Below the pieces are notes generated by a model. It was not told the DNA's origin. It ran no database searches and was given only the letters and a program-made list of their open reading frames with translations. This document shows positions 8,434 through 24,266 of a stretch of 64,000 nucleotides of DNA, piece by piece. Each line of letters begins with the position of its first letter. Position 1 is the stretch's first letter. Source of the DNA: an uncultured Roseibium sp. (lineage in GTDB: Bacteria > Pseudomonadota > Alphaproteobacteria > Rhizobiales > Stappiaceae); contig NZ_CANLVF010000003.1 of the NCBI RefSeq assembly GCF_947494555.1, positions 434,001 to 498,000 on the forward strand, read 5' to 3'. A program made the translations under genes and the position numbers.

Positions 8434-8972
8434 CACGCAGTTTCCCTTGCGACGAATTCTTCTCTACCGAGAAACACCCTGGTGGATGCCATGACTTTTC
8501 CGCGTGCGCGCACATTCAGATCGCGGGCGACACCATGTCCGAAACCGAGCTTGGTCAGAACACTCATAGATGCAGGGTTCTCGTCCAGAGCACCCGACTC
8601 AATCGCTTGAGCGTCGGACACCGAAAAGAACCAGGCCAATGCCATGCCGGCCGCTTCCATCATATAGCCCTTGCCCCAATAGGGCTGGCCAAGCCAGTAT
8701 CCAAGCGTTGGTTCATTGCCGTGGCGACCGAGCGAGACCGCGCCGATCAGACCAGTGCCGTCGTCAATTGCAAACGCGCATTCGCCCGCCAGGTCGTCGG
8801 ATGCGATCTGCCCCAGCCACCAGCGGGCATCATCCATTGTGTAGGGATGCGGCACTACAGACAGCATCTTGGAGACTTCGTAGTTTCCAATCAATTCGAA
8901 CAGCCGTTCAGCGTCCGACCCAGCAGGCGGACGCAGTATCAGACGCTTCGAATTCAGAGCCACGGGTTTCAT
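8433..8972 (-). CDS. GNAT family N-acetyltransferase, third of a tandem set
   Basis: The 179-residue protein is built like its neighbours: LNSKRLILRPPAGSD at the start, TLGYWLGQPYWGKGYMMEAA in the acetyl-CoA loop, and NPASMSVLTKLGFG near the end. The ATG overlaps the upstream acetyltransferase stop as ATGA. It shares the GYWLGxPYWGKG motif with the genes on either side, so the set probably arose by duplication. Substrate unknown. Confidence 0.87.
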   Translation of the reverse strand: MKPVALNSKRLILRPPAGSDAERLFELIGNYEVSKMLSVVPHPYTMDDARWWLGQIASDDLAGECAFAIDDGTGLIGAVSLGRHGNEPTLGYWLGQPYWGKGYMMEAAGMALAWFFSVSDAQAIESGALDENPASMSVLTKLGFGHGVARDLNVRARGKVMASTRVFLGREEFVARETA

Positions 8973-9538
8973 GCCGGCACCCGCCGTTTCTCAAAGTCAG
9001 CCTGCGACAGGCGGACAACAACGTTCGAGACCCTTCGGTCAAGCGGTTTGGCAAAGCGTTCCGTGATGGAGTAAGGCTTGAACCCGACCTTGCGCAGAAG
9101 CGCACGCGAACGTGTGTTTTCTTCATAGGCGCGGGCAGCAATCACATCGGTCGCAAAGGCCTTGAAGGCCCAGTCGAGCGCAGCGTCGACGGCTTCACGG
9201 GCGTATCCGTGCCCCTGAAAAGCGCGACCGATCCAATATCCGATCGTCGGTGCGTTCGGCAATTCCTTCAGGTCACCGGGCGCTTCGACCGCGACAACAC
9301 CGATAAACACACCACCGAGGGTGATCGCAAATACGGCTTCCGTCTCTAATGGGTCCTGCTCAATAACGGTGTCCAGAAAAGCTTCAGCGGATCCGTCCTC
9401 ATAGGGCCACGAAAAAGACGTCAGCCAGCGGGCAACCTGAAAGTCCTTCCCGGCAAGTTCAATCACCGCTTCCGTGTCTGCGAGTGTAATCGGCCGCAAT
9501 ACCAGGCGTCGCGTTCTCAAATCAGGTAAACTCGTCAT
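8969..9538 (-). CDS. GNAT family N-acetyltransferase, second of a tandem set
   Basis: The protein is 189 residues when started at the ATG at 9538, which overlaps the upstream stop as ATGA. The reading frame stays open for about 90 more codons upstream, but that part lies inside the neighbouring gene and shows no family features. Family blocks are LRTRRLVLRPITLADT, TIGYWIGRAFQGHGYAREAV and NTRSRALLRKVGFKP. The acetyl-CoA loop (AFQGHG) differs from the PYWGKG of the next two copies, so this copy has diverged more. Confidence 0.87.
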   Translation of the reverse strand: MTSLPDLRTRRLVLRPITLADTEAVIELAGKDFQVARWLTSFSWPYEDGSAEAFLDTVIEQDPLETEAVFAITLGGVFIGVVAVEAPGDLKELPNAPTIGYWIGRAFQGHGYAREAVDAALDWAFKAFATDVIAARAYEENTRSRALLRKVGFKPYSITERFAKPLDRRVSNVVVRLSQADFEKRRVPA

Positions 9539-10140
9539 CGTCCTTGCCCCCAACATTTTAAAGACTTCCAAACTGTTCTTTCCAGTACATACCGTTCGAT
9601 CGGCACGGACCCGCCGGCTCCAACCGAGCGGATCATCGCCTGGTCCCGGTACTGGAAACCGGACTTGACCAGCACACGGCGCGACGCCGGATTGGTCACG
9701 CGGCAGGATCCCTGAAGTTCTTCGATGTCGTTGTAGGTAAAGGCATGGTCGACCAGCGCATGCACGGCTTCGGTCGCATACCCCCTCCCCCAGAAAGGCT
9801 CGCCCAGCCAATAGCCGACATGCACGGCACCGTCCTCTTCGACGGCGGCATATTTGGCAACACCGATCAAACGTCCGGTGCTCTTCAGCCGGATTGCGAA
9901 TATGGCCGAATTTTCCCTCGCCTGACCTGCACGCGCGATCAGATTGCGGCCATTTTCCAATGTAAATGGATGGGGCAAGGCGGCGAGATTCGCCGCGACT
10001 GTCTTGTTGTTGGCCAGAAATACCAGATCGGCCAGATCGTCCTTGCGCGGCTTGTCGAGCCGTACATGAACCGCTTCCTGCGGCAACGGGGCCGCGGCCA
10101 AACTGCTTTCGTCCAGCAATCCATCGCTTTCAACAACCAT
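9535..10140 (-). CDS. GNAT family N-acetyltransferase, first of a tandem set
   Basis: The protein is about 201 residues, with VHVRLDKPRKDDLADLVFLAN near the start, VGYWLGEPFWGRGYATEAV in the acetyl-CoA loop and NPASRRVLVKSGF near the end. GGAGG lies 5 bases before the ATG at 10140 and only 2 before the ATG at 10143, so 10140 is preferred. An in-frame start at 10185 would run through the hairpin at 10167-10192 and is unlikely. It leads the four-gene acetyltransferase array after rpmA. Confidence 0.86.
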   Translation of the reverse strand: MVVESDGLLDESSLAAAPLPQEAVHVRLDKPRKDDLADLVFLANNKTVAANLAALPHPFTLENGRNLIARAGQARENSAIFAIRLKSTGRLIGVAKYAAVEEDGAVHVGYWLGEPFWGRGYATEAVHALVDHAFTYNDIEELQGSCRVTNPASRRVLVKSGFQYRDQAMIRSVGAGGSVPIERYVLERTVWKSLKCWGQGR

Positions 10141-10154
10141 CATTTCCTCCAGCA

Positions 10155-10192
10155 CAAACAAATCAAGGGAGAGATGGCGTCCCATCTCCCCC
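10155..10192 (-). terminator. Probable intrinsic terminator or attenuator after rpmA
   Basis: On the minus strand a hairpin with arms at 10182-10192 and 10167-10177 (GGGGGAGATGG against CCATCTCTCCC, one bulge, four-base loop) is followed by a T-rich tail (TTGATTTGTTTGT). It would lower read-through from the abundant L21-L27 transcript into the acetyltransferase-obgE genes. Confidence 0.6.
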
Positions 10193-10282
10193 TTGGATCT
10201 TCGACTGGTCTTCTGGTTGCTGACCTGTCTCGAACTGCCGGGGTCTTACGGGACGCCGGCGTTTCGAAACTTCACGTCGGCT

Positions 10283-10552
10283 TTACTCCGCGGCTTCCGC
10301 CACTGGGACCACATTGATAAGTGTTCGTTTGTTGGCTGCCGCCTTAAACTGAACCTTGCCTTCAACGGTCGCGAAAATGGTGTGATCCTTACCCATGCCC
10401 ACGCCGGTGCCCGGGTGCCACTGTGTGCCACGCTGACGAGCGATGATGTTGCCTGGAATCACGGATTCCCCGCCGTATTTCTTGATGCCGAGACGGCGGC
10501 CAGCTGAGTCGCGGCCGTTACGGGACGAGCCGCCTGCCTTCTTATGTGCCAT
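10283..10552 (-). CDS. rpmA: 50S ribosomal protein L27
   Basis: The 89-residue protein begins [16 protein letters not shown] and contains [15 protein letters not shown] and [11 protein letters not shown], the L27 hallmarks. It lies near the peptidyl-transferase centre of the large subunit. There is no N-terminal extension of the Firmicutes type that needs cleavage. GAGGAG precedes the ATG. It is co-transcribed with rplU after a 55-base gap. Confidence 0.98.
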
Positions 10553-10607
10553 CGTTAGAACTCCTCGTTCTTCGAATTCTTAAATCAACAGTCCTGAAAC
10601 AGCGGCC

Positions 10608-11303
10608 TTAAGCGCCTGCAAGTTCCTTGGCCTGTTCAACCCAGTTGTCGCGCTCGATGCGGCCCTTGAAGTTCAGGACCTCGTCAACGCGGGCGATGTC
10701 TTCCGCAGAGAAGTTCACGATCTGCTCGTAGGTGGTGATGCCCAGAGCGTTCAGCTTCTTCTCAAGAACCGGGCCGACGCCGGAGATCTTCTTCAGGTCG
10801 TCCTTGCCTTCCGGTGCGGTGAAGAGCGGCTCGACGGCTGCTTCTTCTTTTTTGTCTTCCTTCACTTCGGAAGCCTTCGGAGCTTCTTCAGTCTTCGGAG
10901 CCGCTTCAGCTTTCGGCGCTGCTTCGGCTTCCTTTTCTTCAGCCTTTGGCGCAGCCTTTTTCGGCGCTGCCTTCTTGGCCGGTTTTGCACCACCGGTCAG
11001 AATGTCCGTTACCTTGACGAGGGTGTAGGACTGACGATGGCCATTGCGGCGGCGTGAATTCTGGCGCCGGCGCTTCTTGAACACGATGATCTTGCGGCCA
11101 CGGCCCTGATCGACCACTTCCGCAACCACGCTGGCACCTTCCACAGTGGGAGCGCCAACAGTTGTTTCCGCGCCGTTTCCAACCAAAAGCACTTCGTCAA
11201 AAGTTACGGTGCTGCCGGCTTCGGCTTCGAGTTTTTCGACCCTCAGGAGGTCGTCTGCGGCAACAGTATACTGTTTGCCACCGGTTTTGATTACAGCGAA
11301 CAT
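10608..11303 (-). CDS. rplU: 50S ribosomal protein L21 with long C-terminal extension
   Basis: The first 100 or so residues are a normal L21 ([40 protein letters not shown]). They are followed by an Ala/Lys/Glu-rich linker (about 105-160) and a C-terminal helix-hairpin-helix-like module (about 165-231: [18 protein letters not shown]). The total is 231 residues against about 103 in E. coli. Extensions of this kind are known in alphaproteobacterial L21, but their role is not established. The ATG at 11303 was chosen because upstream sequence in the frame is not L21-like. Confidence 0.96.
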
Positions 11304-11514
11304 GTCGCGCACGTCCTTCTTTTCGTTTTTGACATCCCGGCATAGGCCTTTCGGCTCGAAAACCGGTTGCATTCAGGTCGAACTCAAGGCGCCTGTCCCT
11401 CCGGACATCCGTCCGGTTGACAGGTCTTTGCGTCGGGTTGCGTGAAGCTTTCAGCCCGTCTGGCCTGGATCGACAAAGAAAACCCGAAAAAGCTGAACTT
11501 TTCCGAGCCCGCGC

Positions 11515-11542
11515 AATATAACTCTCCATCGCGTGGAGTCAA
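11515..11542 (-). promoter_or_regulatory. Probable sigma-70 promoter of rplU-rpmA
   Basis: On the minus strand TTGACT (11542-11537) and TATATT (11520-11515) are separated by 16 bases. Transcription would start near 11507 and give an rplU leader of about 200 bases. I saw no other gene in 11304-11795; the open frames there are read through the tRNA gene or low-complexity sequence. Confidence 0.55.
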
Positions 11543-11795
11543 ACGGAAATATGCGCCGCGCGCCGTGCTGCGCCCAGACCCCCGATGCATCAGCAGCCAA
11601 CCGCCGCGTTCGTCTTGCGTGTCTGGCCCAGGGAAAGATCCGGTCTGCCAGGTGTCCGGCACCGCTGGTCTCCAGGAACGCGCAGCGCCGCACAATGAAC
11701 CCGACTGTTCAAAGAATGCAAATCGGGTCTTGCGGTTGAAATGGAGCTTGTCTATGTTCCGCGCCACTTGAGACCCGTTTTGTCGAAAGTGCCGC

Positions 11796-11885
11796 GGAGA
11801 GGTGCCGGAGTGGTTGAACGGGGCGGTCTCGAAAACCGTTGAGCGCGCAAGCGTTCCGGGGGTTCGAATCCCCCTCTCTCCGCCA
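11796..11885 (+). tRNA. tRNA-Ser (anticodon CGA)
   Basis: This 90-base class II tRNA has an acceptor stem GGAGAGG pairing with TCTCTCC (one G-T pair), an anticodon loop CTCGAAA giving CGA for codon UCG, a long variable arm (GAGCGCGCAAGCGTTC), a T arm GGGGG-TTCGAAT-CCCCC, and an encoded CCA end. It is divergent from rplU. Open frames read through it on both strands are artefacts. Confidence 0.95.
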
Positions 11886-12149
11886 TTTCCAAAAATGCCC
11901 AGCCTGAACACATCGACAACCGCCTGCACTGCTGGGAGAGTTTATCCTTCCGGTGCATCTGGTTGTGACAATGCCGCCAGAAACATCATTTGAAATCGAT
12001 CTTGAAGATCGTGGTCCGGCGCACTAGACCGCACCGTCGCCAGCATGGCCGTCAAGGCGGCGAGCTCGCTCCGCTGTACAGATTGTCGGCTGGAGAACCG
12101 CCTGCTAGACAACGGACTTGTTCAGCAATGAGACATTTGAGCAGACAAT

Positions 12150-12719
12150 ATGCAGATCATATTAATGCGGCACGGCAAACCCGAACTCGATCTGGAATCT
12201 TTGAAACAGCAGAAGGTTTCGGCACGGCAAGTTGGTGAAATCGTCGCCAGCTACGAGTTTTCCGGATTGTCATCAACGGCAACTCCGACTGAGGCAGCCA
12301 GCACTGTCGCCGATGAATGTTCTGCCGCTTTCAGCAGTGATCTGAAACGTGCAACGGATTCGATCCAGAAACTTGGGATCCAGGCCAAAACCACGTACGA
12401 TGACGTGTTTCGAGAGCCTGCCCTGCCGTATCTTAATTTGGGCTGGCCCAAATTCTCGTTTTTTACTTACTGCATTCTGTTTCGCGTGCTTTGGTTTCTT
12501 GGGTTTTCAGCGAACGGAGAGTCCTATAATTCCGCCAAAAGGCGCGCGAGAACCTGCGCCAAGATACTTCGAAAGAGTGCCAAAGAAGAAGGCCGAGTCT
12601 TGCTTCTTGGCCAAGGAATGATGAATCGCCTCATTGCCCGTGAACTCAGGGGCAGGGGGTGGTACAACGCGCAACACGGCGATGACGGGTATTGGTCTTT
12701 CACTGTTTTCCGAAAGTGA
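12150..12719 (+). CDS. Histidine phosphatase (phosphoglycerate-mutase-like) family protein
   Basis: The 189-residue protein starts with IILMRHGKPEL, the RHG phosphohistidine motif (His8). The region that normally holds the second catalytic histidine (usually VxHG) reads LLGQGMMNRLIA, with Gln155 at that place. A hydrophobic stretch (about 100-120) follows the middle of the domain. Family members are phosphatases of small molecules or phosphoproteins; the missing histidine makes activity uncertain. It lies alone between the tRNA and the glycan-type cluster and has no strong ribosome binding site. Confidence 0.72.
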   Translation: MQIILMRHGKPELDLESLKQQKVSARQVGEIVASYEFSGLSSTATPTEAASTVADECSAAFSSDLKRATDSIQKLGIQAKTTYDDVFREPALPYLNLGWPKFSFFTYCILFRVLWFLGFSANGESYNSAKRRARTCAKILRKSAKEEGRVLLLGQGMMNRLIARELRGRGWYNAQHGDDGYWSFTVFRK

Positions 12720-13096
12720 GCAATGTCTCTTCGCGTGTTGCGGCAGCGACAGGCACCCAAGCATGACGGCCTTTGGGCCAACATGGTGATTAATCTGGCA
12801 ACTTCCCTTGTTGGCTTTCGTAGCCGATTGATACTTTAGATTTTTAGATTTTGATCCGGGCTCCAAAAGCAGGAGCCTGTGATTTCGCATTTTTCTCTTG
12901 CTTTGCTCCGTCCGAACCCGCCGGAGCCAAGCGCGATCGGTCCGGATCCTCAAATGAATTTGACCTGAAAATATCATTCTTTGCGGCCCCGCACCTTCAA
13001 CACCGAGACAATACTTGTGCTCTTTGCAGTTCTGTCTGATAAGGCGGTCAAAATTGATACCAAGACTTGGTTCACGTAGAGCGTTTCAGGACAAGA
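12720..13096. other. Intergenic stretch without a recognised gene
   Basis: No supported coding frame was seen in these 377 bases. A short hairpin (GGCTCC, 7-base loop, GGAGCC) sits near 12857-12877 but lacks a T-run, so it is not called a terminator. The promoter of the following sialyltransferase-like gene should lie in the last 150 bases, but I could not pick a convincing pair of boxes. Confidence 0.5.
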
Positions 13097-13780
13097 ATGA
13101 TCGACAGCAGCCTGTTGGCACGAAACCCCAAGACACTTGCAATCGTCGGAAACGGCCCCGTCTCGCAGGAAAATGCCGCAGTAATCGACGAGGCAGATAT
13201 CGTTCTGAGATTCAACAGGGCCACTTCGTGCGGCGCGGCCGGCAAGCGTGTGGACATTTTGATAATCAACCGCGCCCGCGTCTACATGAGCAAACGGATC
13301 AATCCCGTCGCCCTTCACCGGGCCAAGGAAGTCTGGATCAACGACATTGAAGAAAACGGGCAGGTCGACTGGCTGTTCGAACATGAATGCAAGCCGAATT
13401 ATCTGGGCCTTGGTCCGCTGGAGAAGGCGCGAAAACACCTGGAACGCTACGCTGCGGGACCCGATTTCCTGCCCACAACCGGCATATGCGCCATCGCCGA
13501 ACTGCTGGACACCATACCGGAGGCGGAACTGCGCATGTTCGGCTTCACCCACCAGGGCATGCACACACATGACCTTGATGCGGAAAGAGACTGGGTCAAT
13601 GATCTCGTAAAAGAAGGCCGGCTCAAGAAGTTCGATGCGAGCGGAGCGGCGGCTCGGCGCCCTTTTGCCGAAGAGGCAGAGTTCTGGCTTCGGTTGACGG
13701 AAAAGCGCCTGAAGCACTACGTCCAGAACAAACTCATTCATTCCGGCGCCGAGACCAAAAAACGGATATACGGCGAATGA
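13097..13780 (+). CDS. Sialyltransferase-like (GT29-type) glycosyltransferase
   Basis: The 227-residue protein has a sialyl-motif-L-like N-terminus (about 13-43: TLAIVGNGPVS then DIVLRFNRA). It also has a sialyl-motif-S-like segment (about 124-151: FLPTTGICAIAELLD then LRMFGF) and an HX4E motif (His158-Glu163), matching motif VS of family 29. Such enzymes transfer sialic acid or related ulosonates from CMP-sugars. Some databases label bacterial relatives urease accessory proteins, without functional support. The start at 13097 has CAGGA upstream; the frame extends ten codons further. There is no signal peptide or membrane segment, so it should be cytoplasmic. The CMP-sugar synthetase gene next door supports the role. 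Confidence 0.68.
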   Translation: MIDSSLLARNPKTLAIVGNGPVSQENAAVIDEADIVLRFNRATSCGAAGKRVDILIINRARVYMSKRINPVALHRAKEVWINDIEENGQVDWLFEHECKPNYLGLGPLEKARKHLERYAAGPDFLPTTGICAIAELLDTIPEAELRMFGFTHQGMHTHDLDAERDWVNDLVKEGRLKKFDASGAAARRPFAEEAEFWLRLTEKRLKHYVQNKLIHSGAETKKRIYGE

Positions 13781-13971
13781 GACCTTTGCTTCTGACAGCT
13801 TAAGGCCTCACCGCAAAATGGCGCAAGCGCCCCAAAACATACAGGTGCTTGCGAGCCCGAGAATTCAGGGATCCCGTCACCATTCCTGATTTGTCGGAAA
13901 ATATGCTAGACGGTGCGCGTTCACAGGCCCCTTCCGGAAAATCGAAATCTCAACCGACAGAGAACACATCA

Positions 13972-14709
13972 ATGAAAACAATCGCAATTATTCCTGCGCG
14001 AGGTGGTTCGAAGGGACTTCCGGGAAAGAATATCAAGCTTCTCGACGGACATCCCCTGATTGCCTATCCGATTTCCGCTGCGCGCCTCAGCGGGGCCTGC
14101 GATGAGATAATCGTCACAACCGACTCGGAAGAAATTGCGGACGTTGCCAGGCGTTACGGCGCCAACGTTCCCTTTATCAGACCAAGGGAACTGGCTCAGG
14201 ACCTTTCGACGACGGAAGAAACACTGCAGCATGCGCTCGCGTCTTACGAGGAGCTTGCGAACGAGGCCTTCGACATCTGCGTGTTTCTGACCGCGACAGA
14301 CATCTTCAGGAACCCGGCCTGGATCAAACAGGCCGTCGATGCGCTCAAGAACGATCCGGATCTTGAGAGTGCTTTTTCGGTTCAGGGGACCCACAAGAAC
14401 TACTGGATCAAAAACGATGATGACGAAGGCTACAGCCGCCTGCAGGAGTGGATGGCATCTTATTCGTCGCGGCAGGTCCGAAAGAAGATCTACCGGGAAG
14501 ATACCGGGCTGACCTGCGCCAGCCGGGCCCATCTCTGGCGAAACGGCCGCCGTATCGGCGATAGCATTTCGCCGATCATCAACGATCGCACGGAAACGGG
14601 TCTGGACATTCACTCCGAGTTCGATTTCTTCCTCTGTGAGCAGGCAATTGCGTGGCTGAAGGCCAACGATCCCGACAATGCTCCTCAAATCATAGAACCC
14701 AAGCGTTGA
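13972..14709 (+). CDS. CMP-N-acylneuraminate (nonulosonate) cytidylyltransferase
   Basis: The 245-residue protein opens with the nucleotide-binding signature IIPARGGSKGLPGKN, followed by IVTTDSEEIADVARRYGANVPFIRP and ending with LDIHSEFDFFLCE. This is the pattern of NeuA/PseF/LegF-type synthetases. These join CTP and a 2-keto-3-deoxy sugar acid to give CMP-ulosonate and inorganic pyrophosphate. The sugar itself cannot be read from sequence, and no neighbouring NeuB of normal type is present. The ATG at 13972 begins exactly at the domain; the upstream in-frame extension is not family-like. Confidence 0.85.
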   Translation: MKTIAIIPARGGSKGLPGKNIKLLDGHPLIAYPISAARLSGACDEIIVTTDSEEIADVARRYGANVPFIRPRELAQDLSTTEETLQHALASYEELANEAFDICVFLTATDIFRNPAWIKQAVDALKNDPDLESAFSVQGTHKNYWIKNDDDEGYSRLQEWMASYSSRQVRKKIYREDTGLTCASRAHLWRNGRRIGDSISPIINDRTETGLDIHSEFDFFLCEQAIAWLKANDPDNAPQIIEPKR

Positions 14710-14911
14710 GGTGTTTCCCGCACTGTTGCACTCGGGCCGATCCCGTGGTTAACAACAGCGCCGCGTGGCGCATTGAGCCAAAGGCTCTGGCCCACCTGGG
14801 CAAAATGGTGCCCTGGCGAGAAGCAGAGCGGCGGCATATCGCGGGAGCTTGAAACGCACACTCCCAATGACACAAATTTTGACGATGGCTCGCCAGTAAC
14901 AGACCAGACAG

Positions 14912-16300
14912 ATGAATAACGCACCGCTCGTTTCCATAATTATCAGAACAAAGAACGAAGAACGCTGGATTAGCGCATGCCTGAAAAGCGTATTCAGGCA
15001 GAATTATCCTAATCTTGAAGTTATTCTCGTCGACAACAAATCGACCGATCGCACCGTCGCCAAGGCAAAGCAATATCCGGTCAAGCTTGTCGAGATCGAG
15101 GATTTCAAGCCGGGGCTGGCCATCAATCTGGGAATCAAGGCCAGCAAGGGCGACATATTGGTCTGCCTGTCGGGGCATTGTGTTCCAACAGACGAAACCT
15201 GGCTGACCAATCTGGTTGCAGATCTGGATGATCCGCAGATCGCCGGTGTCTATGGCCGCCAGCAACCTCTGTCGTTCAGTTCGCCTTTCGACAAGCGCGA
15301 TCTGATGATCGTCTTCGGCCTAGACAAGAAGGTCCAGCACAAGGACAGCTTCTTTCACAACGCGAACTCGGCATTCCGGCGAGAAATCTGGCAGCGTTTT
15401 CCCTTCGACAACGATCTTTCAAATATCGAAGACAGGTTGTGGGGCAAGACGGTTATCGATGCGGGCCTCAAGATCGTCTACGAGCCTGATGCGTCGGTCT
15501 ATCACTACCACGGCATACACCAGGATCTTGACGTCAACCGCGCCAACAATGTTGTGCGGATAATGGAAGAGATCAGCGGAGCGGCGGATCTTGGCCGGCA
15601 TGCGATGCACAAGGCCGAGGTGTTTGCGATCATCCCCGTGCGCGGCAAGTCCATAACAGGTGAAAACGGTCCCCTGCTGAAATACGCCATCAGACAGGCG
15701 CAGGCGTCGCCCTCGATCGACCGGGTCATCGTCAGCACGGATTCAGAAGAAACCGCCGAGCTTGCAAAGAGCCTCGGAGCAGAGGCTCCGTTTCTGCGCC
15801 CCGAACACCTGAGCGACGATATCGTCGGTATAGGAGACGTTCTTCAATGGACCCTGGAGGAAGTCGAGCAGCTCTATGGTGTGCCGGACCTTGTGGTCGT
15901 CCTTGGAGAAACCTACCCCTTCCGGCCCGACACGCTCATTGAGGACATGATTTCGCTGACCCTGGACCAGGGATTCGATGCTGTCATCGCGGGGCAAAGC
16001 GAGAGCCGTCATATCTGGTTCCGCGATCGCGACGGCCAGATCGAAGACAGCAGCGAGCCGGTATCGACCCCGCGCAACCTGCGCGACAAGCATGCGCTTG
16101 TCGGCCTGTTCGGACTTGGCTGTGTTACGCATCCGATGAACATCCGCCTGGGCGATCCCTTGTCGGGGCGCCTGGGTATCGTGGAAGTCAGTGACCCATT
16201 GTCACGGATCGAAGTCCGAGATCAAAAGACCATGCAGCTCACAGAGCCGATGCTGATCAACTGGCGCACGGCAAACGGCAGCGAGAACCCGAAACCATGA
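14912..16300 (+). CDS. GT2 glycosyltransferase fused to a CMP-sugar synthetase-like domain
   Basis: Residues about 5-225 form a GT-A family 2 domain: VSIIIRTKNEERWISACLKS, ILVDNKSTDRT, then NANSAFRREIW and EDRLWGKTV. Residues about 235-450 resemble the cytidylyltransferase of the upstream gene (VFAIIPVRGKS, VIVSTDSEETAELAKSLGAEAPFLRPEHLSDD). In this second domain the signature is degraded: GGSKGLPGKN has become GKSITGENG, losing the lysines expected to bind CTP. The half may therefore be structural, or use another ligand. The gene ends in an ATGA overlap with the oxidoreductase, so the products are likely made together. Confidence 0.8.
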   Translation: MNNAPLVSIIIRTKNEERWISACLKSVFRQNYPNLEVILVDNKSTDRTVAKAKQYPVKLVEIEDFKPGLAINLGIKASKGDILVCLSGHCVPTDETWLTNLVADLDDPQIAGVYGRQQPLSFSSPFDKRDLMIVFGLDKKVQHKDSFFHNANSAFRREIWQRFPFDNDLSNIEDRLWGKTVIDAGLKIVYEPDASVYHYHGIHQDLDVNRANNVVRIMEEISGAADLGRHAMHKAEVFAIIPVRGKSITGENGPLLKYAIRQAQASPSIDRVIVSTDSEETAELAKSLGAEAPFLRPEHLSDDIVGIGDVLQWTLEEVEQLYGVPDLVVVLGETYPFRPDTLIEDMISLTLDQGFDAVIAGQSESRHIWFRDRDGQIEDSSEPVSTPRNLRDKHALVGLFGLGCVTHPMNIRLGDPLSGRLGIVEVSDPLSRIEVRDQKTMQLTEPMLINWRTANGSENPKP

Positions 16301-17394
16301 CAAAAACAAAACTTCGTGTCGGCCTTCTGGGCTGTGGCCGCGTTGCACAACACTACGTCAAGATCCTGAACGGCGACCCCGGCGTGACCGGACTTGAGAT
16401 CGTCGGGTGCGCGGATGCGCGCAGCCAGGCCGCAACGGCAACCGCCAATGCGCTCAACTCAACAGCCTTCGTGTCCCTTAATGCACTGATCGATGGGGCA
16501 AAGCCGGATCTTGTTCTTGTGCTTACGCCGAGCGGCGATCACACCGCCCATGCCCGCAGCGCGCTGGAAAAGGGCTGCCACGTCATTTGCGAAAAACCGA
16601 TCACGCTTCTGCCCGGTGATGCCTACGACCTCGGCAAATTTGCAGCTTCCAAAGGTCTGATGTACGGCTGCATATTCCAGAATCGCTACAACCCGGCGGT
16701 GATGAAACTGAAGGAAACCTTCGCCGAAGGACGTTTCGGGCGCATTATTTCAGCCTGTGTCCGCCTGCGCTGGTGCCGCGAACAATCCTATTATGAGGAC
16801 GAGTGGCACGGCACGTGGGCGATGGATGGCGGCGTCATCAACCAGCAGGCGATCCATCACGTTGACGCGCTCAACTGGATCTGCGGACCCGTCGAGCGGG
16901 TGTCCGCCGCCATGGCAAACCGCATGAATGAACTTGAAGCCGAAGACACCATGGTTGCAGCTCTGCAATTCTCAAACGGTGCCCTCGGCACGATCGAGGC
17001 AACAACTGCCGCCCGCCCGCGTGACTTTGAAGCATCGCTTTCCATTGTCGGCGAGAAGGGCATGGCGCAGATCGGCGGGATCGCGCTCAACACAATCGAC
17101 ACCTGGGAATTCACGGAAAGCAGGCCGTCCGACCAAACCGTCTTTGAAGAATTCAGCCGGTCGGTACCGACCGGCTATGGCCTCAGTCATGGACCAATGC
17201 TTCAGGATATCGTGGATCGCCTGCTTTCCGGCGACATTGAACCGCCGATCACTGCGCTGGATGCGGTTCGCAGCGTTGAGCTGGTGCATGCGCTTTACAA
17301 AAGCATTGAAAGCGAAACCTGGGTGAATATTGGCGACCAGCCGCTGTCATCGCGGCTCGGCACCGGCATAGCGACTGATAAGGGAGACATTTAA
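16297..17394 (+). CDS. Gfo/Idh/MocA family NAD(P)-dependent oxidoreductase
   Basis: The 365-residue protein has an N-terminal Rossmann fold (VGLLGCGRVAQHYVKIL), the family CEKPI motif that places the catalytic lysine, and a C-terminal sugar-binding domain (MDGGVINQQAIHHVDALNWICGPV) carrying the typical HxxD. Members oxidise or reduce ring hydroxyls of sugars, inositols or nucleotide sugars. Position in the cluster suggests it tailors the sugar acid or its precursor. It overlaps the gene on each side by 4 bases and 1 base. Confidence 0.87.
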   Translation: MTKTKLRVGLLGCGRVAQHYVKILNGDPGVTGLEIVGCADARSQAATATANALNSTAFVSLNALIDGAKPDLVLVLTPSGDHTAHARSALEKGCHVICEKPITLLPGDAYDLGKFAASKGLMYGCIFQNRYNPAVMKLKETFAEGRFGRIISACVRLRWCREQSYYEDEWHGTWAMDGGVINQQAIHHVDALNWICGPVERVSAAMANRMNELEAEDTMVAALQFSNGALGTIEATTAARPRDFEASLSIVGEKGMAQIGGIALNTIDTWEFTESRPSDQTVFEEFSRSVPTGYGLSHGPMLQDIVDRLLSGDIEPPITALDAVRSVELVHALYKSIESETWVNIGDQPLSSRLGTGIATDKGDI

Positions 17395-18296
17395 TGGCCA
17401 TTGAGAACAAAGCCCCCGGAAAAGACGTTTCGAGCGAAGATCTCGAGTCAAAGTTTCCCCTGGCTGCGAAGAAATCTGCAGATCACTTCTCGACCTTCGA
17501 GATTGCCGGCGCACAATTCGGCGGTGGCCATATCCCGGTGTTTGCCGGACCGAACATGGTCGAGAGCGAGGAACTGATTGTCGAAACCGCCACTGCTGTC
17601 AAAGCGAGCGGAGCACAATTCCTGCGCGGCGGCGCCTTCAAGCCGCTCTCCTTTCCGTACCGCTCGGCCAAGTACAATGAAACACGCGAAGACGGCATCC
17701 GCTGGCTCGGAACCGCGAAGAAGGAAACCGGGATCGGGATCATCACTGAAATCATGGAGGAACGTTATCTGGACCTCGTTTGTGAGGTCGCGGACATTCT
17801 CCAGATCGGTTCCCGGAACATGCAGAACTATCCCCTGATCACGGCAGCGGCGAAGACCGGCAAACCACTTATGATCAAGCGGCATTTCGGATGTTCATTG
17901 CGCGACTGGCTGGGCGCTGCCGAATACGCAATGGTTGAAGGGAATGAAAAGATCATTCTGTGCGAACGCGGCGTGACTGCACCGCATACACACAAGGATT
18001 CCTCACGCTTTCTCCTGGACCTGCAGGTCGTTCCCGCCGCCAAGGAAGTCACGCACTTGCCGATTGCCGTCGATCCGAGCCATGCCACTTTCTGGCGCAG
18101 CTGGGTCAAGCCGATGGCGCTCGCGTCCGTTGCTTCGGGGGCCGACGCGATCATGCTCGAGGTGCACCCCGACCCGGAAAACTCCGCGGTAGATCCGCTT
18201 CAACCGATCACCTTCGAGGCTTTCGAAGATCTGATGGTTTCGATGGAGGGCATCGCGCAGGTCGTCGACCGTACCATGGGCAGAACGCTCTCCTGA
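17394..18296 (+). CDS. DAHP/KDO8P synthase-like PEP-dependent aldolase with variant metal and acceptor motifs
   Basis: The 300-residue TIM barrel aligns throughout with type I-beta DAHP synthase: LRGGAFKP, LQIGSRNMQN, AAEYAMVEGNEKIILCERG, LPIAVDPSH, MLEVHPDPENS. Two active-site blocks differ. The metal-ligand Cys of AGPCxVES is Asn54 (AGPNMVES), as in metal-independent KDO8P synthases; His230, Glu256 and Asp260 remain. The KPRTS loop that holds the erythrose-4-phosphate phosphate reads KPLSF (83-87). It should therefore condense PEP with an aldehyde other than erythrose 4-phosphate, perhaps without metal. TAATG overlap with the upstream gene and GGGAG support the start. The alternative is a plain extra DAHP synthase, which the motif changes argue against. 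Confidence 0.75.
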   Translation: MAIENKAPGKDVSSEDLESKFPLAAKKSADHFSTFEIAGAQFGGGHIPVFAGPNMVESEELIVETATAVKASGAQFLRGGAFKPLSFPYRSAKYNETREDGIRWLGTAKKETGIGIITEIMEERYLDLVCEVADILQIGSRNMQNYPLITAAAKTGKPLMIKRHFGCSLRDWLGAAEYAMVEGNEKIILCERGVTAPHTHKDSSRFLLDLQVVPAAKEVTHLPIAVDPSHATFWRSWVKPMALASVASGADAIMLEVHPDPENSAVDPLQPITFEAFEDLMVSMEGIAQVVDRTMGRTLS

Positions 18297-18339
18297 TCCG
18301 CGGCCGATACAACGGGCGCCGCCTCAAATTCCTAATCTG

Positions 18340-18369
18340 ACGGCCCGCAGTTTTGCAGCAGCGGGCCGT
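18340..18369 (+). other. Strong intergenic hairpin between the aldolase and AroE-like genes
   Basis: ACGGCCCGC (18340-18348) and GCGGGCCGT (18361-18369) form a perfect 9-bp stem with a 12-base loop. There is no T-run after it, so it is more likely an mRNA-stabilising or attenuating structure than a full intrinsic terminator. Confidence 0.5.
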
Positions 18370-18433
18370 TACCGGACGTGCCGCGGATGACCGTTTCACC
18401 CGCCAATGACATGATGCTCAGGGACCCACTGCC

Positions 18434-19315
18434 ATGAAGATCGTAGAACTCCTGGAAAACGATCCGGGCCTTAAGGCCGGCGAACGCTATGCCGGCATTC
18501 TTGGCGCTTCACCGTCAAAAGGGGCACGCTCTCCCCTTCTCTGGAATGCCGCTTTTCAGGACTTCGGGCGGCCGGAACGCATGGTTCCGATGGATGTTCT
18601 GCCGGAAAAACTCGGTCAGGTTCTTGAGACGCTCGCCGGCGATACGGATTTCATCGGCGGTGCCGTAACCATGCCCTACAAGGAAAGCATTGCTGCCTGG
18701 CTGGGCAGTCATAGACTTTCACCGCAGGCGCTGAAAATCGGCGCTGTCAATTGCCTCTATCGAAATGATGCCGGAGAGCTATGCGGCACCAATACCGATG
18801 GCGAGGCGGCCCTTGCCGATATCAAAGCGTCCATTCCGGACCTTCGGGGTGTAGACACCTTGTTGATCGGGCCGGGTGGTGCGGGCAAAGCGGTTGCCGC
18901 ATTTCTGGCGGATGCCGGAGCCTCCCTGACGATCGTTTCAAGATCACCTGAAACTGCCAAAGACTTTTGCTCCGGGATCGGCGCTAAATCGGCCACCAAC
19001 GCCGACATAGGCGCGTTGATACCGGCATCCTCCCTGATCGTGAATTGCACCCCGGTCGGATTTGCCAACGGGGTCGCGAGCGAAAGCCCGATAGCAGCCG
19101 CCGACCTGGACCAGGTGCGGCCCGGCAGCCTCGTCTTCGATATCATTTACGACCCGCTAAAGACGCCGTTGCTGACCATGGCCGAAAAGAACGGCCTGGA
19201 AATCAAGAACGGATTGACCATGAACCTGCTGCAGGCCGTTCTCGGGTTTTCCAAGGCGACCAGGATCGCGGATCTGGACCGCATTTCAGCGAGTATGAAA
19301 AAAGCGGCTGGATGA
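18434..19315 (+). CDS. Shikimate dehydrogenase-like (AroE family) oxidoreductase
   Basis: The 293-residue protein keeps the AroE plan: N-terminal substrate domain with RSPLLWNAAF, catalytic Lys83 (AVTMPYKES) and Asp122 (GTNTDGEAAL), a Rossmann segment LLIGPGGAGKAV, and C-terminal GLTMNLLQAVLGF. The first serine of the SxS pair that binds the shikimate carboxylate is Ala31 (ARS), and the usual NVT before the lysine is AVT. It is probably a paralogue acting on a related polyol, not the housekeeping AroE. It follows the aldolase after 137 bases containing a hairpin and ends the plus-strand cluster. Confidence 0.78.
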   Translation: MKIVELLENDPGLKAGERYAGILGASPSKGARSPLLWNAAFQDFGRPERMVPMDVLPEKLGQVLETLAGDTDFIGGAVTMPYKESIAAWLGSHRLSPQALKIGAVNCLYRNDAGELCGTNTDGEAALADIKASIPDLRGVDTLLIGPGGAGKAVAAFLADAGASLTIVSRSPETAKDFCSGIGAKSATNADIGALIPASSLIVNCTPVGFANGVASESPIAAADLDQVRPGSLVFDIIYDPLKTPLLTMAEKNGLEIKNGLTMNLLQAVLGFSKATRIADLDRISASMKKAAG

Positions 19316-19362
19316 CTGATGTCATATAGTCTGGTGTCTTTAGAGGCCGCCTGAATTCGACG

Positions 19363-19836
19363 CTACGGCTGCACGTTGGTTGGCGTTTGAAACTCGCAAT
19401 AGATCGTTGAGTCTAGATATTTTTTCGGCCGCGCGAGATCACAGGTGACGCTGAATGGACCACCTGCCGACCCTGTGCCTGAGTCTCTAAACCCGAGGAG
19501 ACTCTGGCCGTTGTGCCTGATGACAAGTGCATAGACCAGCAGCTCGTCTCCGAACATATGTACGACCTTGACAGTTTTGATCGGCCCGACCGCAAACCTG
19601 CCGCTTGAGTCCGATCTGGTGCTGATTGAACGCTGGTCTTTGGAAACTTGTGTCGCATCAACCGTAGAAAGATATGAGCGTACCAAAACCACTTCCGCGC
19701 CTTCGACAGGCACACCATTCTCAAGGACGACACCTGAGATCTTTGGTGCCAGATCATGCGGCACGGGAAACAGAACGCAGGCTGGCAAAACGCCGCAGAC
19801 TGCGAACGACGCAAGCAAGCGGAACAAAAGGTTCAA
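19363..19836 (-). CDS. Putative lipoprotein with an Ig-like/carboxypeptidase-regulatory domain
   Basis: The 157-residue protein begins with a hydrophobic signal followed by LPAC, a lipobox that would put the lipidated cysteine near residue 20. Residues about 30-60 (ISGVVLENGVPVEGAEVVLVRS) look like a carboxypeptidase-regulatory or transthyretin-like strand pattern. The rest is unrecognised. The start is a TTG without a clear ribosome binding site. It converges with the AroE-like gene. Function unknown. Confidence 0.6.
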   Translation of the reverse strand: MNLLFRLLASFAVCGVLPACVLFPVPHDLAPKISGVVLENGVPVEGAEVVLVRSYLSTVDATQVSKDQRSISTRSDSSGRFAVGPIKTVKVVHMFGDELLVYALVIRHNGQSLLGFRDSGTGSAGGPFSVTCDLARPKKYLDSTIYCEFQTPTNVQP

Positions 19837-19936
19837 AACGAAGACCGATTCTCTGGCTCAAGAACTAACGATATCGTCAGAACAGTGACGAAAAGCTTGG
19901 CCGATCTATGGCGCTCCGCTTTTTCAGACTGGATCG

Positions 19937-20482
19937 CTACTCCACCGGAAAATCAATTCGCGGCAGGCGGGTGCGAGAGCGGTAGAGGTGGCGTTCGGTG
20001 GGAACGTCGGAGCTGTAGAAATAAGTGTCGTCGACCTCATCCAGCGGGATGCGGCGTTGCAGGGGCGCCGTGCCGTTCTTGCTCGACAGGATAAGTCCGT
20101 TCCCGGACCATTCCTCCACACGTGCTGAATGACAAGGCATGCCGGCATACTCGCCACTGACTTCAAACCAGACCATGATGTCATGGACCTGCGGTTCGTC
20201 GACGGCGGTCCATTCCTCTTCCAGAACCGTCAGCATGGGAACGCCTGAGAACGGCGTATAGCCGTAGAGTGGGTACGTTCCGGTGGCCCAGCCATGGCAG
20301 AAATAGCGTTCCGGTAGGCGCGTAGTCGGCTTGGGAACCCAGACACGGACAGGCGTTCCCCCGTTTGTGCGGGCGTATTTGATATTGCCCCAGGCATTGG
20401 GATTGCGCTCCTGCCAGGCGCGCGGAACAATGCCATGGCAGGTGAGTGTTTCCGGCATGTCGTTGGGATCAATCGGTTGCAC
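19937..20482 (-). CDS. Conserved-looking hypothetical protein
   Basis: I do not recognise this protein of about 181 residues. It is rich in Trp, Tyr and Pro (PRAWQERNPNAWGNIKYA, YFCHGWATGTYPLYGYTPFSG), has no signal peptide or membrane segment, and ends with a basic strand (RHLYRSRTRLPRIDFPVE). A GTG start at 20482 has AAGGA 6 bases upstream; a TTG at 20506 would add eight residues. It lies between a lipoprotein gene and a LysR gene on the same strand. Confidence 0.55.
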   Translation of the reverse strand: MQPIDPNDMPETLTCHGIVPRAWQERNPNAWGNIKYARTNGGTPVRVWVPKPTTRLPERYFCHGWATGTYPLYGYTPFSGVPMLTVLEEEWTAVDEPQVHDIMVWFEVSGEYAGMPCHSARVEEWSGNGLILSSKNGTAPLQRRIPLDEVDDTYFYSSDVPTERHLYRSRTRLPRIDFPVE

Positions 20483-20581
20483 GTGTTGTCCTTTCAAAAA
20501 ACGCAATCAACGACACCGATGCCAAAATGAACGCCTTTTCAGACATGAGATCAAGTGCAAGACGCTAACCCGAGAACGCAA

Positions 20582-21487
20582 TCAACCCTCCTCCGCCGCT
20601 GAAATCAGCCAGTTTCGCACTCGTTCCGCATTTTCGCTGAGCGGTCGCGACTTCGACCAGACGAGATAAAACCCCATGCCCGTCCGCCAGCTCCAGTCCT
20701 GGCGGGCACTGACAAGACTGTTCTCGATCAGTGGAAAGGCGAGATGGTTCCAGCCGAACGCAAAGCCTTCGCCCGAGATGGCCGCGTTGAGGACGAGCGC
20801 ATAGTCATTGAGACGCAACCCGGAGGGTGGGATCGCGACCTCACAGCCTTGCGCATCGAACCAGTCCTTCCAACTGGGGCGTTCGCGGACCGGTTCTTCG
20901 AGATGGATCAACGTGTGTTCAAGAATGTCTTCCTTGCACTTTAGGTCGCTGGCAGACATCAAGGCGGGACTGGCAATCGGATAAATCACCTCCTCAGCGA
21001 TCAGCGAGGCGTTGCAGCCCGGCCAGCGTCCGTCGCCGCGACGCACTGCGAGCGTGATGCCGCCATCGTCAATATCGGGCTCCCGGTCGCTTGACTGCAG
21101 GCGCAGGTCGATATCGGGGTGAAGGTCGCGCAGGGTTCTCAGACGCGGCATCATCCAATAGGTGTTGAAGGCGGTCGAAGCACACAGGGTGACAATGGCA
21201 TTTCTGGCTTCCGCCTGGACAGAACGTGTCGCTTCGAGGATCTGGTGCAGGCCCTTGGAAAGCTCGGCGTAAAACCGCGCACCGACGGGCGTCAGCTCCA
21301 CCTTCTTGTGCGCCCGACGAAACAGCGGTGCGCCGAGCGCGTTTTCAAGATTTTTGACTGCGGCACTAACGGCCGGTTGCTGCACATTCAGTTCTGCCGC
21401 CGCGCGGGTGAAGGAGCCATGCCTCGCGGCAGCCTCAAAAATGAGGATGTAGCGCGGAGAACCAACGATCTTCCAAAGGTTTTGCAT
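20582..21487 (-). CDS. LysR family transcriptional regulator (GcvA-like)
   Basis: The 301-residue protein has an N-terminal winged HTH (about 10-70: FEAAARHGSFTRAAAELNVQQPAVSAAVKNLE) and a LysR substrate domain with the GcvA-like IDLRLQSSDREPDIDDGGITLAVRRGDGRWPG. It is divergent from the mttB-enolase-dehydrogenase operon, which it probably controls. Its ATG lies inside the left arm of a perfect inverted repeat (21482-21504), and no ribosome binding site is visible, so its mRNA may be leaderless or poorly translated. Confidence 0.88.
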   Translation of the reverse strand: MQNLWKIVGSPRYILIFEAAARHGSFTRAAAELNVQQPAVSAAVKNLENALGAPLFRRAHKKVELTPVGARFYAELSKGLHQILEATRSVQAEARNAIVTLCASTAFNTYWMMPRLRTLRDLHPDIDLRLQSSDREPDIDDGGITLAVRRGDGRWPGCNASLIAEEVIYPIASPALMSASDLKCKEDILEHTLIHLEEPVRERPSWKDWFDAQGCEVAIPPSGLRLNDYALVLNAAISGEGFAFGWNHLAFPLIENSLVSARQDWSWRTGMGFYLVWSKSRPLSENAERVRNWLISAAEEG

Positions 21488-21504
21488 AATTTCAGTTTAT
21501 GCAA
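21482..21504. promoter_or_regulatory. Perfect inverted repeat, LysR-type box
   Basis: TTGCATAA (21482-21489) and TTATGCAA (21497-21504) are exact inverted repeats around a 7-base centre and contain a T-N11-A core (21487-21499). The box lies between the divergent LysR and mttB genes and overlaps the LysR start codon, consistent with autoregulation and control of the operon. Confidence 0.65.
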
Positions 21505-21582
21505 TGCGTGAATTTTTTCAATCGTCACAAGGCTTGTCCAAAGCGCTAGATTTTCGGGATCGGTCCATGGAAAGGCGACGAG

Positions 21583-23097
21583 ATGGCAAGACGTTCACGT
21601 GCTGCACGCGGGCGGAGCGCGGAGGCAAAGCCCGGGGCACCGTTCATCCGGCGCGTGCTGCCCTATTTCGAAATTCTTGATGAAGAAAGCCTGACGGCAC
21701 TCGAAACCCAGGTCGACTGGATTTTTGAAGATGTGGGCGTGGCTTTCAGAGACGATCCCGAAGCCTTGCGGATCTGGGCCGAAGCTGGAGCACGCATTGA
21801 AGGCGATCTCGTGCGCGCGGATGCGTCCTGGATCCGTTCCTTGTGTGGCAAGGCACCACGGAAGTTTATCCAGCGCGCACGCAACCCGGAAAGGTCGGTC
21901 ACGATCGGTGGCGACAACCAGGTGTTTGCTCCGGTCTACGGATCGCCCTTCGTGCGCGACCTTGAAGGCGGGCGCCGCTACGGAGACCAGGCAAGCTTCG
22001 AGAAGCTGGTGAAGCTTACCTACATGCATCCCCACCTTCACCATGGCGGCTTCGTGACCTGCGAGCCCTGCGACGTGCCTGTCTCGAAACGCCATCTCGA
22101 CATGCTCTTTGCTCACATGACACTGAGCGACAAGCCGCATCTTGGCGCGATCACGGAGATGAGCCGGGCCGAAGACAGCGTCGCGATGGCCGAGATTGTG
22201 TTCGGCCGGGATGTGATGGAGCAGGACTGCGTCATCATGGGCAACGTCAACACGAACTCGCCGCTTCTGGTGGACAAGGTGGCGAGCGAGGCCGTGCGCG
22301 TTTATTGCGGACGTGGCCAGGGCATCGTCGTCGTGCCGTTCATCCTGTCCGGAGCGATGGGGCCGGTTTCGACAGCCGCATCCGTCTGTCAGGCGATGGC
22401 CGAGGCGATGATGGTCTGCGCCTTTTCACAGATCGTACGGCCCGGCGCACCGTTTGTGCTCGGCAACTTCCTCAGTTCGATGAGCCTGAAGAGCGGAGCG
22501 CCAACGTTCGGAATGCCCGAACCTGTGGTGTCGAACTATGTCATCGGGCAACTTGCGCGCCGCGCAGGCCTGCCGCTGAGATGCGGCGGGTCATTGACAG
22601 CCTCGAAAATTGAAGATGCGCAGGCTGCCTATGAGAGCGCTGATTCAATGCATTCGACGATGCTTGCGGGTGCAAATTTCGTTCTGCATTCCGCCGGGTG
22701 GCTCGAAGGCGGGCTTTGCACCGGATTTGAAAAACTGATCATGGATGCGGACCGGCTGGGGTCCTACGAGAAGATCCTCTCCGGCGGGCTGGACACATCG
22801 GAAGAAGCATTTGCCCGCGACGCCTACGGCGAAGTCGGGCCCGGCGGTCATTTCCTCGGATCGGCGCACACGATGCGGAATTATCAGACAGCCTTTTACG
22901 AACCGCGTCTCTCAGACAGCGAAAATGTCGAAAGCTGGGAAGAAGGCGGATCGAAGGATATGCGCCAGCGTGCCTTCGAACGGTGGCAAGCGATGCTGGC
23001 CGATTATCAGGAGCCGCCTATGGATCCGGCGACGCGCGAGGAACTGGAGGCCTACGTGGCCCGGCGGAAGGAGGAGCTTCCAGATGCCTGGTATTAA
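21583..23097 (+). CDS. MttB-family methyltransferase (trimethylamine/betaine methyltransferase-like, non-pyrrolysine)
   Basis: The 504-residue protein aligns with the MttB superfamily: FEDVGVAFRDDPEALRIWAEAGA near the start, VFAPVYGSPFVRDLEGG, MGNVNTNSPLLVDK, and GPGGHFLGSAHTM near the end. No in-frame amber codon exists, so it is a non-pyrrolysine member like glycine-betaine or proline-betaine methyltransferases. Characterised members move a methyl group to a corrinoid protein, but no corrinoid protein or activase gene is seen in this window. It is first in an operon with an enolase-family enzyme and a GcvT-type flavoprotein, pointing to demethylation of a quaternary amine. Purines (AAAGG) lie upstream of the ATG. 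Confidence 0.85.
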   Translation: MARRSRAARGRSAEAKPGAPFIRRVLPYFEILDEESLTALETQVDWIFEDVGVAFRDDPEALRIWAEAGARIEGDLVRADASWIRSLCGKAPRKFIQRARNPERSVTIGGDNQVFAPVYGSPFVRDLEGGRRYGDQASFEKLVKLTYMHPHLHHGGFVTCEPCDVPVSKRHLDMLFAHMTLSDKPHLGAITEMSRAEDSVAMAEIVFGRDVMEQDCVIMGNVNTNSPLLVDKVASEAVRVYCGRGQGIVVVPFILSGAMGPVSTAASVCQAMAEAMMVCAFSQIVRPGAPFVLGNFLSSMSLKSGAPTFGMPEPVVSNYVIGQLARRAGLPLRCGGSLTASKIEDAQAAYESADSMHSTMLAGANFVLHSAGWLEGGLCTGFEKLIMDADRLGSYEKILSGGLDTSEEAFARDAYGEVGPGGHFLGSAHTMRNYQTAFYEPRLSDSENVESWEEGGSKDMRQRAFERWQAMLADYQEPPMDPATREELEAYVARRKEELPDAWY

Positions 23098-24259: not shown

Positions 24260-24266
24260 GGAGACA

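Follow-up and report, generated by a model that had tools for sequence, protein, structure and literature searches.

The window analysed here is a stretch of 64,000 nucleotides from an uncultured Roseibium sp. (NCBI RefSeq assembly GCF_947494555.1, contig NZ_CANLVF010000003.1, positions 434,001 to 498,000 of the forward strand; G000:C3:434001-498000 in our numbering of its 7.0 Mb genome). It contains a run of six genes for which an earlier note had proposed a role in making a glycan residue activated with cytidine monophosphate (CMP). All six open reading frames were confirmed on the one strand claimed for them, and, but for the GT29-like gene, profile scans upheld their family assignments (Table 1). 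Five of the six, encoding a CMP-sugar synthetase, a GT2 fusion protein, a WlbA-like Gfo/Idh dehydrogenase, a DAHP-synthase-like aldolase and an AroE-like dehydrogenase, form a mobile cassette. On the reading that we favour, with a probability of about 0.7, this horizontally spread cassette would make a non-standard 3-deoxy-ulosonic acid that is placed into a surface glycan.

Table 1. Features at the cassette locus, in window coordinates.
Feature	Coordinates	Strand	Basis and remarks
tRNA-Ser(CGA)	11796..11885	+	ARAGORN
Histidine-phosphatase-like gene	12150..12719	+	PF00300 29.6 bits; local neighbour, outside core
GT29-like protein	13097..13780	+	L-, S- and H-x4-E-type blocks resembling sialylmotifs; partner in Roseibium only, non-core
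CMP-sugar synthetase (core)	13972..14709	+	PF02348 100.9 bits; ARGGSKGLPGKN motif intact
GT2 + degenerate CMP-sugar-synthetase (CTP_transf_3) fusion	14912..16300	+	PF00535 96.5 bits, PF02348 38.6 bits
WlbA-like Gfo/Idh/MocA dehydrogenase	16297..17394	+	closest PDB entry 3q2k, 226.9 bits
DAHP_synth_1 phosphoenolpyruvate aldolase, divergent clade, type I-beta DAHP synthase descent	17394..18296	+	PF00793 166.4 bits
AroE-like dehydrogenase	18434..19315	+	PF08501 51.4 bits; changed substrate pocket GARSPLLWN

The four genes from 14912 had been described as tightly spaced. This holds for the fusion, Gfo and aldolase genes, whose overlaps are 4 and 1 nt, but not for the AroE-like gene, which starts 137 nt further on; gaps of about 200 nt set off the CMP-synthetase and GT29-like genes. 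The cassette aldolase was found in 27 genomes, with Roseibium, Marinomonas, SAR86, SAR324, SAR11 and Prochlorococcus among them (L and G numbers below are our handles for loci and genomes). These carriers comprise the window, G066, 21 loci of a one-genome-per-species scan, and G493, G730, G1119 and G1178. The scan had returned 22 loci, one of which (L024) is an ordinary enzyme while the other 21 fall in the cassette clade at 65-89% identity; by record title they belong to Roseibium, a Rhodospirillaceae metagenome-assembled genome (MAG), other alphaproteobacteria, Magnetovibrio, Pseudorhodoplanes, Marinomonas, SAR86, SAR324, Pelagibacteraceae and Prochlorococcus.

An AroE-like gene accompanies the aldolase in all 27 carriers, in 26 inside the stretch fetched around the aldolase and in the genome of L014 on another small contig. 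The GT2 was found in 25 carriers, a Gfo gene was seen nearby in 24 and a clear CMP-sugar synthetase in 22. Within the fetched stretches of the 21 species-scan loci, the AroE-like gene is present in 20, the Gfo gene in 19 (2 partial), the fusion in 17 and the synthetase, at no less than 48% identity, in 14; whole-genome look-ups located the synthetase in the L014 and L025 genomes (54% and 58%) and the GT2 part in those of L014, L023 and L025. Every neighbourhood count leaves out the C-terminal half of the fusion, and the fusion counts leave out L012, whose synthetase is fused to a methyltransferase-like domain. All five genes are held by G066, by G1119, an independent draw in which they run in the order synthetase, fusion, Gfo, aldolase, AroE, and by G1178, in a different order. 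As a control, 0 of 10 ordinary type I-beta DAHP synthase loci held any of the partners within about 10 kb on each side (E 1e-8). The genes are thus kept together across phyla as the earlier note had supposed, with the exception of the GT29-like gene. No further gene family occurs in more than 9 of the 21 loci, and therefore the five genes together with central metabolism should be sufficient for the pathway.

In the kin of the window's genome the aldolase is rare. With that genome counted throughout, it occurs in 3 of 87 genomes at the family level (E 1e-50), in 1 of 397 of an order draw (E 1e-60), namely the window's own genome only, and in 6 of 385 of a class draw (E 1e-100); of the 13 genomes among 398 of a phylum draw that pass E 1e-30, 3 have it at 63-100% identity and 10 hold ordinary enzymes at 34-41%. 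The aldolase tree pairs Prochlorococcus with SAR11 (support 92) and joins a SAR324 MAG to alphaproteobacteria and G493 (support 97), and because it mixes phyla in this way we infer that the cassette spread horizontally. Viral contigs held no relative of the cassette aldolase or of the GT29-like protein, and the aldolase matches in plasmid and phage records were all below 60% identity (best 44.7%).

Within the window the cassette is in a variable region adjoining tRNA-Ser(CGA), since synteny with relatives breaks at the 3' end of the tRNA gene: in five relatives that are without the cassette here, homology ends at 11885-11888. G066 shares the insertion and is co-linear with the window over 8341-26731 at 91.5%. 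This tRNA gene looks like an insertion hotspot in the window's genus. Near-copies of the tRNA end, of 63-65 bp, lie about 6.5 and 9.1 kb downstream in G064 and G070 (L136, L137), as integrated elements leave them; the cassette of G064, which shares the window's genus, coincides with record NZ_JASHKA010000039.1 of Roseibium sp. MMSF_3544.

The aldolase scores just above the cutoff of TIGR01361, the type I-beta DAHP synthase model (273.1 against 267.75), and under that of PRK08673 (312.6 against 335), and its nearest solved structures are the type I-beta DAHP synthases 1vs1 and 1zco (216-218 bits). With the KdsA model TIGR01362, whose cutoff is 314, it reaches only 95.1 bits, and it lies outside the KdsA clade. 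The NeuB domain PF03102 is matched only in part (profile positions 52-146 of 241) at 22.3 bits against a cutoff of 22.1, and a Pfam scan found no C-terminal SAF domain. In a tree made by a quick method, with two long rows flagged (L097 and L098, the latter joining next to the cassette clade), the 25 cassette members form one clade (SH-aLRT 99) that sits with the DAHP synthases and away from KdsA. Identity to the window aldolase is 60-100% inside this clade and at most 45% outside it.

In type I-beta DAHP synthases, according to PMC6362186, the metal ligands are Cys, His, Glu and Asp; phosphoenolpyruvate (PEP) is bound by the Arg and Lys of LRGGAFKP, the Ser and Arg of GSR, a Lys and another Arg; and erythrose 4-phosphate (E4P) is bound by the Arg-Thr of KPRT. 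The window aldolase has Asn54 (17553-17555) in place of the metal Cys and Leu85 (17646-17648) in place of the E4P-binding Arg. The Cys is Asn in 25/25 cassette aldolases, a count that is circular because these rows were chosen by the letters AGPN, although the same 25 rows are those with at least 61% identity. All 25 keep the remaining ligands His, Glu and Asp, and likewise the five charged residues that bind PEP (Arg, Lys, Arg, Lys, Arg). The E4P-binding Arg of KPRTS is Leu throughout, followed by Thr or Ser, the Ser two places beyond it is Phe, and Pro follows the metal Asp, again in 25/25. None of the Asn, Leu, Phe and Pro changes occurs in any of 12 ordinary relatives; L156 and L157 agree in the Asn, Leu and Phe changes. 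Set against the type I-beta DAHP synthases (1vs1, 1zco, 1rzm; TIGR01361), the cassette enzymes have the same barrel sequence, charged PEP residues and catalytic His, Glu and Asp, but read KPL[ST]FPYR for KPRTSPY, have Asn for the metal Cys, carry inserted loops (YR..KY..E and an insertion after ERG), and differ in reading DPSHATFW.

For KDO8P synthases, PMC3052366 describes Asn in place of this Cys as required for metal independence, good metal-independent activity also needing changes in the metal-Asp loop. The cassette aldolases are changed at both positions and share these two features with the metal-independent, Asn form of KdsA (PMC3052366), whereas their sequence nests with the DAHP synthases. 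Judged by its residues, the cassette aldolase is not an ordinary DAHP synthase. Because the PEP residues are kept and the metal Cys and E4P-binding Arg are changed, it should still join PEP with an aldehyde, though not with E4P in the ordinary manner. A free aldose fits as the acceptor, since no phosphatase belongs to the conserved set.

The score just above the TIGR01361 cutoff would also be expected if the aldolase and the AroE-like protein were duplicated enzymes of ordinary aromatic amino acid synthesis, an isozyme of DAHP synthase plus a further AroE, lying by chance in a glycan island. We regard this as highly improbable: the genes are kept together across phyla, both enzymes fall in clades of their own, and the metal-ligand and E4P-site changes run through all 25 rows. 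The window's genome moreover encodes a separate type II DAHP synthase (E 3.4e-212) and a second, ordinary AroE elsewhere, and so, with its changed active site, the cassette enzyme is neither an ordinary nor the sole DAHP synthase; had it been both, the proposal of the earlier note would have been refuted.

The AroE-like protein falls below the cutoff of every aroE model listed. Its kind forms one clade (support 100) apart from 20 further AroE copies of the same genomes; 21 of the 22 carrier genomes searched, all but G475, have such a further copy. In an alignment of 24 rows (that of L017, an aligned piece too short, was omitted), the catalytic Lys and Asp and also an Asn and a Gln are kept in 24/24, as in shikimate dehydrogenase AroE. 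The two differ at what we take to be the Ser pair of the AroE carboxylate site, where the first Ser is Ala and the second is kept in all 24, and at the Asn of the NVT motif, presumably also a residue of the AroE substrate pocket, which is Ala, Cys or Ser in all 24. The PDB matches include 7cok, a 5-ketofructose reductase and thus an enzyme of the shikimate dehydrogenase family that acts on a sugar. The Arg that we take to signify NADP use is in place in 19/24 rows, one position later in 4 and absent from 1.

Adjoining DAHP-synthase-like and AroE-like enzymes, the latter with Lys, Asp, Asn and Gln kept, could instead supply a carbocyclic acid of the shikimate or quinate type for attachment to the glycan. 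This is improbable, if less so than a chance duplication. No 3-dehydroquinate-synthase-like cyclase was seen among the families present in more than 5 loci (ABC transporter, asparagine synthase and SDR, one member each scanned; no search by name was made), the E4P-binding Arg is lost, and a CMP-sugar synthetase belongs to the set.

The Gfo protein is nearest in the PDB to 3q2k (227 bits) and 3q2i (207), the next match scoring 78. We take these two to be WlbA UDP-N-acetylglucosaminuronic acid (UDP-GlcNAcA) 3-dehydrogenases, which act by oxidising UDP-GlcNAcA at C3. The Lys of the EKP motif and a His, presumably active-site residues, are kept in 19/19 rows, and the Asp that we assume to mark NAD use in 18/18 readable rows. 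Fold, Lys, His and most neighbouring residues are common to the WlbA type and the cassette Gfo, but the Arg of RWRG is not kept in the latter, and the conserved set is without a 3-aminotransferase.

The core CMP-sugar synthetase has its CTP_transf_3 domain over cutoff and an intact N-terminal ARxGSKGxxxKN motif; its best NCBIfam match is PseF (134.7 bits, under the cutoff of 205.7), and in the PDB it matches NeuA (92.6 bits). In the fusion, the GT2 part spans about 14912-15600 and scores 96.5 bits for PF00535, with a cutoff of 23.3. Because the synthetase signature ARxGSKGxxxKN is lost in 18/18 fusion rows, the fused synthetase domain is probably non-catalytic, and the GT2 stands without it in three genomes (G482, G483, G493). 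At the DxD position of the GT2, S[GA]HC is read in 23/23 rows from 22 genes; DxD is absent. In SpsA, a GT2 enzyme solved with deoxythymidine diphosphate, a residue pair acts as the DxD and binds the cation (PMC7439481), and GT29 enzymes use CMP-sugars and are metal-independent (PMC10225777). With DxD absent, a CMP-sugar synthetase adjoining and GT29 enzymes being metal-independent, the cassette GT2 is on its sequence a fair candidate for a CMP-sugar transferase.

A CMP pathway of the phosphonate type was considered and dropped because the scanned neighbour proteins included no PEP mutase. In SAR11, the loci L012:4474-6216 and L013:5816-7558 (only L013 scanned) have a CMP-sugar synthetase with a long C-terminal methyltransferase-like extension.

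The cassette resembles the nonulosonic acid pathways (NeuB/PseI/LegI with NeuA/PseF) in its succession of PEP aldolase, CMP-sugar synthetase and transferase, and its synthetase is closest to PseF and NeuA. It differs from them in that the conserved set is without a NeuB-type aldolase, a UDP-sugar epimerase or hydrolase and an aminotransferase, and has the Gfo and AroE-like enzymes instead. The earlier note had argued from the absence of an ordinary NeuB or KdsA. As regards the conserved set this stands for a NeuB-type aldolase, but not for the genome, in which a separate, Cys-type KdsA (L002; 435 bits against a cutoff of 242) and NeuB-family genes lie elsewhere.

The gene set, its conservation and the kept and lost residues support the core of the earlier proposal, in which a PEP aldolase would make a non-standard 3-deoxy-ulosonate, to be modified by dehydrogenases, activated with CMP and transferred. 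In the route that we propose, its substrates and step order included, the aldolase would condense PEP with an aldose, probably unphosphorylated, without a catalytic metal. The WlbA-like dehydrogenase (NAD-type) and the AroE-like one (NADP-type) would then oxidise and re-reduce one carbon of the ring, two positions away from the one that bears the carboxylate, yielding an epimer that the aldolase itself would not make directly. C4 of the ulosonate is the candidate, because the enzymes of both parent families act at such a position in the ring; epimerisation by NAD oxidation and NADPH reduction is the least certain step. The CMP-sugar synthetase would activate the acid, and the GT2 without DxD, to which a pseudo-synthetase domain is attached in many carriers, would transfer the residue. 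In Roseibium the GT29-like enzyme may take part in the transfer.

The GT29-like label holds at the level of motifs but not of profiles: there is no Pfam match at E 0.001, and PF00777 stays sub-threshold (E 0.013, 15.4 bits, cutoff 23). In 5 aligned sequences VGNG, RFN, PxxG, H158 and E163 are conserved, and blocks like L, like S and of the form H-x4-E were seen by eye. Sialylmotifs L, S, III and VS exist in GT29 (PMC10225777). No PHROG and no credible PDB match was obtained, and an AlphaFold model from two sequences (pLDDT 44) was too poor for a fold search. An upstream TTG would start the reading frame at 13067. As a member of the cluster the gene is confirmed near the cassette in three Roseibium carriers (the window, L005 and L101), but only there, and is thus non-core. 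Distant relatives in rhizobia bear the name of urease operon accessory proteins; on pSymB of Sinorhizobium meliloti (L139:498-1148) one lies between urease subunit genes and is annotated as a urease accessory protein.

Several observations weigh against the cassette making its own ulosonic acid, beginning with the genes of the NeuB family. Of 25 carrier genomes searched, 22, including that of the window, have strong matches (E under 1e-30). They lie on the contig of the cassette aldolase in 9 of the 25 and within 10 kb of it in 4 of 21 loci (L013, L017, L023 and L025); in the last, a Pseudorhodoplanes MAG (L025:6482-11844), NeuB-family, PseG-like and PseH-like genes (the latter two under their cutoffs) lie directly upstream of the aldolase and AroE-like genes. 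The cassette might then modify or supplement an ordinary nonulosonic acid from a NeuB encoded elsewhere, its aldolase making a side group or a second unit. We consider this unlikely, though the least so of the alternatives: genes of this family are widespread, occurring in 9 of 14 control genomes searched, in 17 of the 21 loci the nearest 10 kb around the aldolase are free of them, those of the window's genome sit on other contigs, and three carriers (G477, G479, G480; small assemblies that may be incomplete) show none.

Nor are the partners always close or complete. The synthetase and GT2 of G493 share a contig with the aldolase but are 60-70 kb distant from it, and partners in the genomes of L023 and L025 are 11-18 kb away. 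Three Prochlorococcus loci and Magnetovibrio have synthetase homologues of only 35-38%, and that of the SAR324 genome is partial (46%). A Gfo gene was not seen near the aldolase in L014, L023 and G493 (no genome-wide Gfo search was made), and the GT2 was not found in G730 or in the stretch of L012, whose start falls within Gfo. As to the chemistry, a new Arg90 or Lys93 could replace the lost Arg of KPRTS and bind phosphate, which would permit a phosphorylated acceptor; because a 4-keto-3-deoxy-ulosonate would be a reactive acylpyruvate, the oxidation might instead occur at another position or precede the aldol step; and the loss of one motif is the whole basis for assigning the GT2 to a CMP-sugar.

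The genes surrounding the cassette are those of glycan islands: asparagine-synthase-like and GDP-mannose-dehydratase-like genes, a carbamoyltransferase, an FkbM methyltransferase, WbqC, an ABC transporter and, under its cutoff, a sulfotransferase-like gene (single members scanned). The histidine-phosphatase-like gene next to the tRNA has a homologue close to the cassette in G066 only and was dropped as a pathway step, not being conserved. A trimethylamine-methyltransferase (MttB) family protein is encoded at 21583-23097 of the window (PF06253 723.7 bits). In SAR11, APS-kinase-like and pyruvate-kinase-barrel proteins lie directly 3' of the aldolase at L016:10922-12455 and L017:10923-12459 (one member each scanned), and a radical SAM/SPASM protein and a class I/II aminotransferase lie between the aldolase and the AroE-like gene at L012:1785-3597.

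No description of such a cassette was found in the literature available, coverage that left out most subscription journals and preprints, and a paper on the Pelagibacterales O-chain (PMC11898729) contained not one of the 12 terms looked up in it. Each step is of a known kind, while the clade of the aldolase, the pairing of the two dehydrogenases and the set of partners are undescribed in the literature found. Taken further, the cassette may represent a new pathway class for ulosonic acids, distinct from those of both Kdo and the nonulosonates, in which a metal-independent synthase derived from DAHP synthase would use an unphosphorylated aldose, a redox pair derived from WlbA and shikimate dehydrogenase would set a new ring configuration, and a GT2 would use a CMP-sugar, the whole moving between abundant ocean bacteria (SAR11, Prochlorococcus, SAR86); we put this forward tentatively, at a little short of even odds. 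DAHP synthases reported so far are all metalloenzymes according to PMC6362186, and if our reading is true a DAHP-synthase-descended aldolase with Asn in place of the metal-ligand residue would be an exception to that rule.

Being common to SAR11, SAR86 and Prochlorococcus, the cassette would be a marker for one specific acid residue and would serve as a genomic predictor for glycan surveys by 1,2-diamino-4,5-methylenedioxybenzene (DMB) labelling and mass spectrometry. To our knowledge, the surface-sugar chemistry of these three groups is largely unknown. Surface sugars help determine which phages infect marine bacteria and, if the proposed pathway is true, the surface sugar made by the cassette may matter for phage attachment in bacteria of the ocean.

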